A stretch of 64,000 nt of DNA from Janibacter sp. HTCC2649 (lineage in GTDB: Bacteria > Actinomycetota > Actinomycetes > Actinomycetales > Dermatophilaceae): contig NZ_CH672413.1 of assembly GCF_000152705.1 (NCBI RefSeq), positions 248,001-312,000 on the forward strand, in the 5' to 3' direction. The notes below the pieces were generated by a model, which searched no databases, was not told where the DNA came from, and saw only the letters and a program-made list of their open reading frames with translations. This document shows, piece by piece, positions 1,085 through 64,000 of the stretch. The position numbers and the translations under genes were made by a program. Every line of letters starts with the position of its first letter. Positions within the stretch are counted from its first letter, which is position 1.

Positions 1085-1216
1085 GCCGGACAGCGCGAAG
1101 GGAGCCGGACGGCATACGCCGTCTTCGCCGAAGGCACCTGACGCCTGACATTTGTCATGGGCCGGTCGTGACAACCGTGTGAGGGCGCGAGGCACGTCGC
1201 CCGTGAGGCTCGATGC

Positions 1217-2107
1217 ATGACGACACACACAGCGGTCAGCCTCCGCGGCGTGACCAAGAAGTTCGGAGATGTGGAAGCCGTCCGGGGGATCGACCTGGAC
1301 ATCGAGCCGGGCGAGGTGGTGGCTTTCCTCGGCCCCAACGGCGCCGGCAAGACCACGACCATCGACATGCTGCTCGGGCTCTCGAAGCCGACCAGCGGTG
1401 AGGTCGAGGTCATGGGCATGAAGCCCCGTGACGCCATCGCTCACGGCCTCGTCTCGGCAGTGATGCAGACCGGGGGACTGCTCAAGGACCTGACCGTTCG
1501 CGAGACGGTCGCCTACATGGCCAGCCTCTTCGCCAACACCGAGTCGGTCGACGACGTGCTCTCACGGGCAGGCATCAGCCACATCGCCGGCCGCAAGGTC
1601 GGCAAGTGCTCGGGTGGCGAGCAGCAGCGCCTGCGCTTCGCCCTCGCCCTGCTGCCCGACCCGGCGCTCCTTCTCCTCGACGAGCCCACCACCGGCATGG
1701 ACGTCGAGGGCCGCCGCGCGTTCTGGGGAGCCATCCGTGAGGACGCCTCCCGCGGCCGCACGGTCCTCTTCGCGACGCACTACCTCGAGGAGGCCGACCA
1801 GTACGCCGACCGGATCGTCCTCGTGAGCAGCGGCAAGGTCGTGGCCGACGGCAGCGGGTCGGAGGTCAAGGCCCTCGCCAGCGGTCGCACCGTGCGCGCC
1901 ACCTGGTCCGGCGCCGACGTCGACCGCCTGACCGCCATCGGTGGCGTGGACTCGGTGGAGCTGCGCGGGGACACGGTCTACGTCCACGCCAAGGACACCG
2001 ACTCGGTCGCGCGCTACCTCCTCGCCGAGACCGACGCGCGAGACCTCGAGATCACCGCGCGGGGCCTGGAAGAGGCCTTCCTCAACCTGACAGGAGCAAA
2101 CGCATGA
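1217..2107 (+). CDS. ABC transporter ATP-binding protein
   Basis: 296 residues. Walker A GPNGAGKT at residues 39-46, signature SGGEQQ at 132-137, Walker B LLLLDEP at about 151-157 and the H-loop FATHYLEE are all intact. The C-terminal 90 residues form the extension typical of DrrA-type exporter ATPases. The gene overlaps the ABC-2 permease by ATGA, so the two are co-translated and should form a drug, lipid or small-molecule exporter. The following sensor kinase and response regulator probably control it, a frequent arrangement in actinobacteria. Substrate unknown. An out-of-frame ATG 4 nt earlier (1213) was rejected. Confidence 0.93.
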   Translation: MTTHTAVSLRGVTKKFGDVEAVRGIDLDIEPGEVVAFLGPNGAGKTTTIDMLLGLSKPTSGEVEVMGMKPRDAIAHGLVSAVMQTGGLLKDLTVRETVAYMASLFANTESVDDVLSRAGISHIAGRKVGKCSGGEQQRLRFALALLPDPALLLLDEPTTGMDVEGRRAFWGAIREDASRGRTVLFATHYLEEADQYADRIVLVSSGKVVADGSGSEVKALASGRTVRATWSGADVDRLTAIGGVDSVELRGDTVYVHAKDTDSVARYLLAETDARDLEITARGLEEAFLNLTGANA

Positions 2108-2916
2108 GCACCGCAACGAACACCGCCACGTCCTCCGCCAGGAGCGCCGTGGACCCCAGCACTCGCACGGTCCCTCGCTTCGGCGGCTTCAACACCACCA
2201 TGCTCGGGATCGAGCTCAAGCGGATGCTGCGCAACCGCCGCACGATCATCTTCACGCTGATCTTCCCGGCCGCGATGTTCTTCGCGTTCGGAGGACAGTC
2301 GGGCTGGAACGAGAAGGTCGGGAACGGCAACGTCGCGGCCTACATCCTCGTCTCGATGGCCCTCTACGGAGCAGCCCTGACCGCGGCCGCAGGTGGTGCC
2401 ATGGTCGCCATCGAGCGGGGGCTCGGTTGGTCCCGATCGCTGCGGCTCACGCCTCTCAACCCTGCCGTCTACATCCTCACCAAGGCGCTCGTGGCGCTGG
2501 TCATGGGCACCATCGCGGTCACCGTCGTGAACCTCGCCGGAGTCATCCAGGGCAAGCCGCACATGCCGGTCGGCACGTGGATCAGCTGCGCCCTGCTCAC
2601 GGTGGTCTGCACCCTTGTCTTCGCGGCCCTCGGCGTGTTCATCGGCTACCTCGTGCCGGGCGAGAACGCCATGCAGGTGCTCGGCCCGGGGCTGGCCCTG
2701 TTCAGTTTCGTCGGCAACGTCTTCATCCCGATCGACGAGGGAACGACGATGTGGCACGTCGCGTCGTTCACGCCGATGTTCGGAGTCGCCGAGATCGCCC
2801 GGTCCCCGCTGACGCACGACCTGCCCTGGTACGCCGTCCTCAACGCGGTGCTCTGGCTGGCCCTGTTCATCGGTGGGGCGGCGTGGCGGATGAGCAAGGA
2901 CACGGCGCGGGTCTGA
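2104..2916 (+). CDS. ABC-2 type transporter permease
   Basis: 270 residues with about six hydrophobic helices; the first begins after the basic stretch KRMLRNRRTIIF (about residue 40), as in ABC-2 permeases of the DrrB type. It starts inside the stop of the ATPase gene (ATGA overlap), so it is the membrane partner of that ATPase. Located in the cytoplasmic membrane; two copies would be expected in the exporter. Substrate not deducible. Confidence 0.9.
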   Translation: MSTATNTATSSARSAVDPSTRTVPRFGGFNTTMLGIELKRMLRNRRTIIFTLIFPAAMFFAFGGQSGWNEKVGNGNVAAYILVSMALYGAALTAAAGGAMVAIERGLGWSRSLRLTPLNPAVYILTKALVALVMGTIAVTVVNLAGVIQGKPHMPVGTWISCALLTVVCTLVFAALGVFIGYLVPGENAMQVLGPGLALFSFVGNVFIPIDEGTTMWHVASFTPMFGVAEIARSPLTHDLPWYAVLNAVLWLALFIGGAAWRMSKDTARV

Positions 2917-62395: not shown

Positions 62396-62396
62396 C

Positions 62397-64000
62397 TCAG
62401 ACCGTCGTCACGACGATCTCGGAGCCCTTGGGCACCTGATCTCCCTCGCCCGGGTTGAGGCCCTGGACCGTACCGAAGTTGATGCCCGGGATGGCCTGGC
62501 GCTCGGTGACCTTGAAGCCGAGCCCACCCAGGATGCCCTTGACCTCATTGAACTGCTTGCCGATGAGCCCACCGGGGACCGCGACGAGCACGGGTCCGTC
62601 GGACACCACGACAGAGACCTTGTCGCCCTTGAAGAGCGTGCCCCCGGCCGGGTCCTGACGGATGATCGAGTCCTTGGGCACCGTGTCGCTGTTCTCCCTC
62701 GGACCACCCTCTTCGACGACAAGACCGGCCTTCTCGAGAGCTGCCTTGGCGGCGTCGAACGGTTTGCCCGTGAAGTTCTCGACCGAGATCGGCTTCTGAC
62801 CCTTGCTCACGGTGAGGGCCACGGACGTCCCGCGCTTGGACTGCACGCCAGCCTTGGGATCGCTGGCGATCACCTGACCGCTGGGGACGTCTTCGCTGAA
62901 GGTCTCGGTGACCTTGCCGACGACAAGGTTGGCTCCGGTGATCTGGGTCTTCGCCTCGTCCAGACCCACTCCGGCCAAGGTGGGCACGACATAGCGCTCC
63001 GGCCCCTTGGAGACGACGAGAGTGACCGTGGTGCCGCGACGGACCTCCGCGTTGGCCTTGGGCGTCGTCGAGATGACAAGTCCCTTGGCCACGCTCTCGC
63101 TGAACCCGTCCTGGCGCGTGGGGGCAAGGTGCTGGGTGCGCATGGTGGCCTCTGCGGCGACGACGGGCTTGCCGACGACCGCCGGGACAATCGTCGGGGC
63201 GCCGGGGCCGGCGATGAAGAACCACGCCGTGGCCGAGGCGATCGCAGCGGAGACGATGACGAGGATCCACGGCCACACGGCCCGGCGACGCGTTCGCGGT
63301 GGCACGGTGCGCGCAGTGCGCGCGGGCAACCCAGCGGTCGCGGGAGGTGCGCCGCGCACCTGGTCGCGCAGCGACGGCCCGGCATACGCAGGGTTGGGGC
63401 TTGGGATCGGCCGCTGGACCGGCAGTGCCGTGGTGCGGGTGATGGTGGAGGCTGCGGCGTCGACCGCCGACGGCCGGTCGTCGAGCTCGTCAGCGGTCAG
63501 CTCGCGGCGGGCGGTGCGCATCAGGGTCGCGAACGCCGCTGCATCGGCCGGACGTCCGTCGGGGTCGAGTGAGGTCGCGGCAGCCACGAGCTCGTCGAGG
63601 ATCTCGGGGGACTCGGGGGAGCGGCTGCGCAGGCGCGGGGCTCCGTTGTGGACGTGCTGATAGGCGACGTTGATCGCCGTGTCGCCGTCGAAGGCCTTGG
63701 AGCCGGTGAGCATCTCGAAGAAGACGAGCCCCGCGGCATACACGTCACTGCGAGCGTCGGCGATCCCGCGCTCGACCTGCTCGGGCGACAGGTAGGCAAC
63801 GGTGCCGAGGAGCAGCCCCGACGAGGACGTCACGGTCTGCGAGGTCACGGCGCGGGCCAGGCCGAAGTCGGCCACCTTGACCGCGCCGTCCTCACGCAGG
63901 ATGACGTTCTCGGGCTTGATGTCGCGGTGGATGATGCCCGCATGGTGCGCCGCGGCGAGGGCGTCGAGCACCGGGACCATGATGTCGAGTGCGGCCCGCG
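62397..64000 (-). CDS. pknL: PASTA-domain Ser/Thr protein kinase, N-terminus outside the window
   Basis: 534 residues visible; the glycine loop and ATP lysine lie beyond the window end. Catalytic loop [14 protein letters not shown], metal motif DFGLAR, activation segment [11 protein letters not shown], then a Pro-rich juxtamembrane segment, one membrane helix ([20 protein letters not shown]) and four PASTA repeats (starts near [37 protein letters not shown]) that bind cell-wall fragments. The nearby aroG agrees with the pknL locus as I recall; mycobacterial PknL lacks PASTA, whereas other actinobacterial forms have it. Confidence 0.9.

Follow-up and report, generated by a model that had tools for sequence, protein, structure and literature searches.

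A short repeated word as a candidate DNA uptake signal in a Gram-positive actinobacterial family

The octamer CGGCATAC, which occurs in 47 exact copies in a 64-kb stretch of actinobacterial DNA (bases 248001-312000 of a 4.22-Mb contig; this whole stretch is referred to as the window), probably serves as a signal by which self DNA is taken up in natural transformation, a reading to which we assign a probability of about 0.7. It is preferred because the combination of traits found in Knoellia, the dialects of the word in the family, and a pair of genomes carrying two words match the descriptions of the DNA uptake sequence (DUS) of Neisseriaceae and the uptake signal sequence (USS) of Pasteurellaceae. 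These traits, as they appear from the sequence, are abundance, exactness, strand balance, an excess between genes, an effect on codon choice, hairpin pairs just downstream of genes and conserved positions, to which are added the scarcity of the word in two prophages and one 80-kb island, and the presence of comEA, comEC and flp/tad genes. The preliminary description of the window had proposed that the word acts throughout the genome as a functional signal comparable to uptake sequences or HIP1, and this proposal is supported by the Markov, codon-shuffling, dipeptide and cross-family comparisons described below, none of which refuted it. Among the options that it named (uptake, repair and chromosome organisation), the evidence added in this study favours uptake.

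To our knowledge, self-tags for DNA uptake are used by a few Gram-negative bacteria and are not known in Gram-positive bacteria. No description of CGGCATAC, or of uptake words in Actinobacteria, was found among the matches listed in the open-access literature, which for one search were 25 of 1,472, and a report elsewhere is possible. Three papers contained the letters of the word, and to judge by their titles none of them deals with a word repeated throughout a genome.

Abundance of the word in the window and in the genome

The copies in the window were distributed over both strands (25 on + and 22 on -), and CGGCATAC was the top-scoring 8-mer of the window under a third-order Markov model (47 copies compared with 1.79 expected). 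Dinucleotide shuffling of the window (n = 100) yielded a mean of 0.78 copies and a maximum of three. The earlier count of 48 heptamers GGCATAC/GTATGCC, 47 of which were said to extend to the octamer, was reproduced (25 + 23 heptamers), as was the lone heptamer at 17624 that does not extend and reads GTATGCCC; 45 of the 48 positions given for them were exact, and the other three are corrected here (11455 to 11445, 33518 to 33517 and 35741 to 35740). About eight copies had been placed between genes, compared with nine of the 47 by our own gene calls, according to which 93% of the window is coding.

The whole genome of 4.235 Mb was found to carry 2,982 copies (0.70 per kb), 1496 on the + strand and 1486 on the - strand. 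The word read backwards, which served as the control, occurred 59 times (24 + and 35 -), and the enrichment of CGGCATAC over the reversed word is therefore about fifty-fold. The genus of the source genome was taken to be Knoellia by inference. A genome sample was assembled from the window and 34 further stretches of approximately 20 kb (738,126 bases without N), in which 667 genes were delimited by our own simple gene caller and not from annotation. In this sample, a third-order Markov model trained with CGGCATAC masked predicted 5.3 copies, compared with 468 observed, and each of the 24 octamers that differ from CGGCATAC by a single mismatch occurred at 0-2.2 times its expectation, i.e. near background. 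The word is non-palindromic and contains adenine on both strands. Its orientation was balanced in the window and the 34 stretches along the chromosome (244 + and 224 -), so that a polarity of the Chi or KOPS type, against which the equal strands had already been cited, is excluded.

Only five copies were detected in 80 kb covered by four stretches upstream of the window (L022-L025, C1:150000-229999; 150-230 kb of the source contig). This nearly word-free region has an ordinary G+C content, and one of its four stretches contains Tad-like genes; it may perhaps be an acquired element.

Codon choice, hairpin pairs and conserved positions

The 468 sampled copies included 110 intergenic copies, 352 genic copies and six on a gene edge, corresponding to densities of 1.19 per kb between genes and 0.54 per kb within them. 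CGGCATAC drives codon choice in the source genome: shuffling of synonymous codons within each of the 667 genes left a mean of 34 copies (22-41 in 30 shuffles) compared with the 352 observed, 31 of the 61 sampled ATA codons and 161 of the 698 sampled TAT codons were located inside the word, and GCA-TAC was used for 114 of 186 Ala-Tyr pairs following ..CG, compared with seven of 358 elsewhere. Ala-Tyr or Tyr-Ala frames accounted for 275 of the genic copies. The word was not confined to these dipeptides, a possibility raised in the preliminary description, since 77 of the 352 genic copies were in other frames and 110 of all 468 were intergenic. Antisense copies within genes (201) outnumbered sense copies (151); an excerpt of PMC2346458 reports that the reverse complement likewise predominates within genes in most of the Pasteurellaceae tested.

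Neighbouring copies within 60 bp formed 26 pairs, comprising 15 of the arrangement GTATGCCG..CGGCATAC (-+), eight of the opposite arrangement (+-) and three in the same orientation. All 15 -+ pairs were intergenic, 4-90 bp downstream of a gene end, and in 12 of them at least three further contiguous stem pairs could be formed inside or outside the word. Such an extended stem was found for one of the eight +- pairs, six of which lie inside genes. The -+ pairs look like terminator hairpins.

A preference was also noted in the sequences flanking the word. Adenine was present at position -11 in 38% of the copies overall, in 40% at unpaired intergenic sites, and in 35% and 39% of the copies in either of the main coding frames, in which -11 is a wobble position; other upstream wobble positions in these frames held A in 0-24%. 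Thymine was present around +8 in 33%. Other Knoellia share the flank preference (34% and 33%).

Positions of CGGCATAC are conserved between Knoellia species. The comEC region was compared with that of eight Knoellia relatives at 80-86% identity, giving 144 pairs from 18 sites of the source genome, of which 86 were comparable and the rest unaligned or gapped. All eight bases were identical at 68 of the 86 comparable pairs, compared with 21.2 expected from octamers of the same codon phase. By phase, the conserved pairs were 17 of 25, 35 of 39 and, between genes, 15 of 16, but one of six in the rare phase 0.

Distribution and dialects of the word in the family

Word-bearing genomes, defined by at least 340 copies at no less than 2.5 times the reversed control, made up 109 of the 186 family genomes (in 101 of these the ratio was 5 or higher), with 341-4,724 copies and a median of 1,734; the remaining 77 had at most 322. 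Knoellia, Pedococcus, Phycicoccus and Humibacillus are among the named word-bearing loci. Elsewhere in the phylum, CGGCATAC was counted in 614 distinct genomes from other families (392 + 222), none of which came near the density of the word-bearing genomes. Their maximum was 386 copies with 176 of the control in a 7.5-Mb genome (G235), and the highest ratio among those with more than 100 copies was a mild excess in a 1.8-Mb genome (G459; 161 compared with 30). In 59 more distant loci, 11 copies were found in 975 kb, with six of the control. An intergenic excess was also present in a sample of genus g4 (0.77 per kb intergenic and 0.31 per kb genic); overall, the excess between genes and the terminator-like pairs are well established in Knoellia, and the smaller samples of other genera give a mixed picture. 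The reversed word CATACGGC was itself common (453-578 copies) in G005, G006 and G009 (g4) and in G041 and G042 (g18), and may arise where CGGCATAC precedes GGC.

The counts reveal four related words plus one unrelated word in the family, with dialects and words that exclude one another across it. CGGCATCC was present in 2,099-4,480 copies in seven of the 186 genomes (two of g9, four of g15 and one of g51), the next highest count being 1,336. Two genomes of g15 contained both words, G036 with 1,217 copies of CGGCATAC and 2,195 of CGGCATCC, and G037 with 1,189 and 2,099. CGGCGTAC was present in 1,125-4,185 copies in 10 of the 186 genomes (next 1,011). In G004 it occurred 785 times (control 153), with no intergenic enrichment in 100 kb, and it was kept as the dialect of this genus, weaker in G004, because the genus-mates exceed 2,300 copies. 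CGCCGTAC was present in 1,031-3,117 copies in four of the 36 genomes tested for it (next 574), and the same four were also high in CGGCGTAC. Dialects differ within the single genera g32, g15 and g5; in g32, for instance, G083 contained 3,117 copies of CGCCGTAC and 19 of CGGCATAC, and G084 and G085 contained 3,681 and 1,062 copies of CGGCATAC, respectively. Two genomes of g43, G143 and G146, had low counts of CGGCATAC (625 and 836) and raised counts of CGGCGTAC (865 and 1,011) for their genus, and are perhaps caught in dialect change or decay.

The unrelated word, CCCCCTTCG, was present in 797-1,939 copies in all 16 genomes of g27 (G052-G067) and all three of g35 (G090-G092), which are without the family word (7-41 copies of CGGCATAC); the other 167 family genomes had at most 80 copies. 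In 180 kb, 43 copies were observed compared with a mean of 7.6 and a maximum of 17 after synonymous shuffling, and four inverted pairs were found in 160 kb. The next base was C or T in 49 of 55 sampled copies, and the base after that was C in 43 of the 55 (sample loci L011, L016, L080, L117-L121 and L229).

The history of the words was read from a rough tree of the ComEC domain, in which 25 of 57 inner branches are unresolved. Genera g27 and g35 were placed together (value of 89 in the Shimodaira-Hasegawa-like approximate likelihood ratio test, SH-aLRT). Because CGGCATAC was scattered over the tree and CGGCATCC appeared in two separate places (G178; g15), at weak support, the tree suggests an old word with repeated dialect switches.

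Three further candidates were rejected. ACGGCAAC, considered as a dialect of G008, had none of its 33 copies between genes and 32 of 33 in one frame, indicating protein repeats; CAGGGTGC in G001 and CGTAGCGA in G038 were strong in plain counts and disappeared when counted per 1-kb bin, indicating local repeats. No other strong word was detected in 20-120 kb samples of twelve seemingly wordless genomes, a search of low sensitivity that missed the words of G014 and G087 in 20 kb.

Uptake genes and apparent prophages in comEC

The source genome encodes comEA (with SLBB and HHH domains), comEC, flp, tadE and T2SSE genes, and has two chromosomal flp/tad clusters. The means of DNA uptake are general in the family and do not explain which genomes carry the word: ComEC presence, TadE and PilM, a marker of the type IV pilus (T4P), were each tried as discriminators of word-bearing genomes and rejected, PilM being matched in seven of 186 genomes at E 0.001, with six over the cut-off.

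In four genomes, an insert of 28-44 kb interrupted comEC at the same place, approximately at position 30-37 of the Competence domain (G125, L218-L220; G134, L221-L223; G159, L224-L226; G068, L227-L228). The insert junctions of G125, G134 and G159 carried a serine recombinase of the large type (474-475 aa; Pfam Resolvase + Recombinase), and a terminase was confirmed in both inserts tested (G125 and G134). These two inserts contained two and three copies of CGGCATAC per 40 kb, compared with four in 11.6 kb and six in 12.9 kb of flank. The inserts are apparently prophages, reminiscent of the comK prophage of Listeria, and phages may shut down DNA uptake in members of the family. G113, considered as a natural comEC knock-out, was uninformative, as its contig ends inside the gene.

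Interpretation as a DNA uptake signal

In the proposed mechanism, CGGCATAC would serve as a short 'self' tag on double-stranded DNA that is recognised at the cell surface in natural transformation, the putative receptor being most likely a Flp/Tad pilus subunit, or else another surface component, and the DNA would then be handed to ComEA and subsequently to ComEC. Word-bearing DNA would be preferentially taken up and recombined in, by which new copies would spread or be restored and mutated copies replaced (molecular drive), and such drive would maintain exact copies by the thousand, in either orientation, wherever the protein sequence permits. A change of receptor preference in a lineage would lead to the site set being rewritten to a new dialect. 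We infer from the traits described above that the word acts in uptake, that its receptor is a part of the pilus and that drive keeps its copies.

The DUS of Neisseriaceae, which is read by the minor pilin ComP, shares with CGGCATAC the thousands of exact copies, the terminator-type inverted pairs and the intergenic excess, and DUS pairs serve in terminators, according to excerpts of PMC3630211 and PMC2397512. Eight DUS dialects, one or a few bases apart, and one genome with two of them are described in the excerpt of PMC3630211; dialects of this kind, and genomes with two words, occur in the family studied here too. The present case differs in its word, in the unrelated Gram-positive family, in that no ComP-like receptor was found, and in that the uptake role is a proposed one; as PilM-type T4P markers are present in only seven of 186 genomes, the task would fall to a Flp/Tad pilus. 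The USS of Pasteurellaceae, in the excerpt of PMC1626085, likewise has a strong consensus from which few copies deviate by a single mismatch, a density of about one copy per kb and two related dialects in one family, and the same excess of perfect over single-mismatch copies is given there for USS and DUS alike. The AT-rich flanks of the USS, which the DUS is without, have a faint parallel in the A at -11 and the T near +8 in Knoellia (PMC1626085, excerpt). CGGCATAC differs from the USS in its word, its weaker, one-genus flank pattern, and the phylum and envelope of its hosts. Micrococcus luteus belongs to the same phylum and shares comEA, comEC and Flp/Tad genes, and an excerpt of PMC6370729 reports that its Flp pili are required for transformation; it is without an uptake word as far as the main text of PMC4322843 goes, in which the term 'uptake sequence' occurs 0 times.

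Several observations weigh against a function in uptake. ComEC was found in 180 of the 186 family genomes and TadE in 76 of the 77 panel genomes, with and without CGGCATAC, the sole miss for TadE being the wordless G069, and no receptor candidate was found to co-vary with CGGCATAC. The six genomes without a ComEC match (G016, G051, G121, G128, G168 and G181) are all word-bearing; all are drafts of 58-95% completeness, four of them at most 81% complete. Interrupted or partial comEC was also seen in word-bearing genomes, namely in G125 and G134 (prophage), G101 and G145 (two frames) and G110 (partial), which may reflect recent loss or sequence error. About 44 of the 186 genomes had none of the tested words (CGCCGTAC having been searched in 36 only), and nearly all of these have comEC. 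The traits seen in Knoellia were not all seen in the samples of other genera. In the g41 sample, which comprised 80 kb from four genomes and 27 copies, the word was as dense between genes (0.36 per kb) as within them (0.34 per kb), and inverted pairs were looked for and none were found. The intergenic excess was weaker in the CGGCATCC genomes G017 (1.37 compared with 0.73 per kb, 1.9-fold) and G034 (1.52 compared with 1.14 per kb, 1.3-fold), and in these samples most -+ pairs were genic and hairpin pairs were not a visible feature. The flank preference was seen in Knoellia only among the sets compared, A at -11 being not above control octamers (15-17%) in Pedococcus/Phycicoccus/Humibacillus (18%), in g41 and others (10%) and in CGGCATCC genomes (18-21%). 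Finally, even spacing was looked for in CGGCATAC and none was seen (coefficient of variation of 0.963, compared with 0.976 for random placement).

HIP1 of cyanobacteria is a palindromic octamer that is present in thousands of copies, unequally among related genomes. The main rival reading, which we consider unlikely, is that CGGCATAC is a comparable non-polar signal of the chromosome inside the cell, providing a nucleoid, repair or recombination protein with sites every 1-2 kb and unrelated to uptake. Such a signal would equally accommodate the thousands of exact copies found on either strand throughout the sampled chromosome and their small number in the island and the prophages, as well as the presence of ComEC and Tad irrespective of the word and the hairpin pairs and intergenic excess that were not seen in every sampled word-bearing genus. 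Unlike HIP1, however, CGGCATAC is non-palindromic, and the dialects within genera g32, g15 and g5, the unrelated word in two genera and the approximately 44 wordless genomes would be easy to explain by an uptake receptor and odd for a housekeeping protein. The hairpin pairs after genes in Knoellia and the scarcity of single-mismatch copies, like the dialects, are traits of uptake sequences (PMC1626085 and PMC2397512, excerpts).

It is very improbable that the word is recognised by a DNA methyltransferase or a defence system, for example as a non-palindromic site of the BREX-like or type III kind, even though methylation of an asymmetric 8-mer is conceivable where each strand offers an adenine, and dialects could mirror changed target recognition. 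Such sites are normally neutral or avoided in the host genome, and the enrichment over the reversed word, together with the distortion of codons, is the opposite of avoidance. A signal with polarity in recombination or segregation (Chi, KOPS or FtsK-type) or a transcription terminator element has, in our view, slighter prospects still: the inverted pairs do resemble terminators, but only 30 of the 468 sampled copies are in terminator-like pairs and the 352 copies inside genes refute the terminator reading, and the balanced orientation all along the sampled chromosome refutes a polar signal. An artefact of composition, codon pairs or dipeptides, which the prevalence of Ala-Tyr and Tyr-Ala frames might suggest, is refuted by the synonymous shuffles, by the use of GCA-TAC only where it completes the word, by the denser intergenic copies and by the 614 genomes of other families.

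It seems on the whole rather likely that, independently of Neisseriaceae and Pasteurellaceae, self-recognition in DNA uptake arose in a Gram-positive actinobacterial family. At least two unrelated words would be in use there, CG[GC]C[AG]T[AC]C, whose dialect switched repeatedly, and CCCCCTTCG; subunits of Flp/Tad pili would probably read them, and in some lineages temperate phages would lie inside comEC. If true, this would add a third case, from Gram-positive bacteria and with dialects as well as two words unrelated to each other, indicating that self-recognition in bacterial sex evolved repeatedly. It would also provide a new system for finding receptors via close species with different words, and a possible route to the genetic tractability of Knoellia, Pedococcus, Phycicoccus and relatives.

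Sites and other repeated words in the window

Table 1. Exact copies of CGGCATAC in the window. Strand gives the orientation of CGGCATAC; the basis is exact match together with our own gene calls.
Position	Strand	Context
1110..1117	+	intergenic
3294..3301	-	in gene 2929-4038(+), Tyr-Ala frame
4865..4872	+	in gene 4711-5337(+), Ala-Tyr frame
5421..5428	-	in gene 5389-6963(+)
10402..10409	+	in gene 9929-11308(-)
11445..11452	-	intergenic
12684..12691	+	genic
14257..14264	+	genic
15191..15198	-	genic
15421..15428	-	genic, Met-Pro frame
15927..15934	+	genic
17208..17215	-	intergenic
18798..18805	+	genic
20470..20477	+	genic
20615..20622	-	genic
22511..22518	-	intergenic
22565..22572	-	intergenic
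22916..22923	+	genic
23709..23716	-	genic
27132..27139	-	intergenic
27498..27505	+	genic
29472..29479	+	genic
29819..29826	-	genic
30677..30684	+	genic
33517..33524	-	genic
35025..35032	+	genic
35739..35746	+	genic
38373..38380	+	genic
43099..43106	-	genic
43589..43596	+	intergenic
47254..47261	-	genic
47545..47552	+	genic
49323..49330	-	genic
49652..49659	+	genic
52859..52866	-	genic
53677..53684	+	genic
54816..54823	-	genic
55853..55860	+	genic
56775..56782	-	intergenic
57091..57098	-	genic
58871..58878	+	intergenic
60319..60326	-	genic
61250..61257	+	genic, Gly-Ile frame with rare ATA codon; inverted pair with 61262, in-gene
61262..61269	-	genic; partner of 61250
62140..62147	+	genic
63380..63387	+	genic
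63734..63741	+	genic

Other words were over-represented in the window under the third-order model, including CTCCCCC/GGGGGAG (24 copies compared with 5.7 expected) and CTACCTC/GAGGTAG (26 compared with 6.9). In addition, two perfect 12-bp palindromes were each found twice, GATTGCGCAATC at 16559 and 16600 (41 bp apart) and ACCCACGTGGGT at 39432 and 55404, and these are possible regulator sites.

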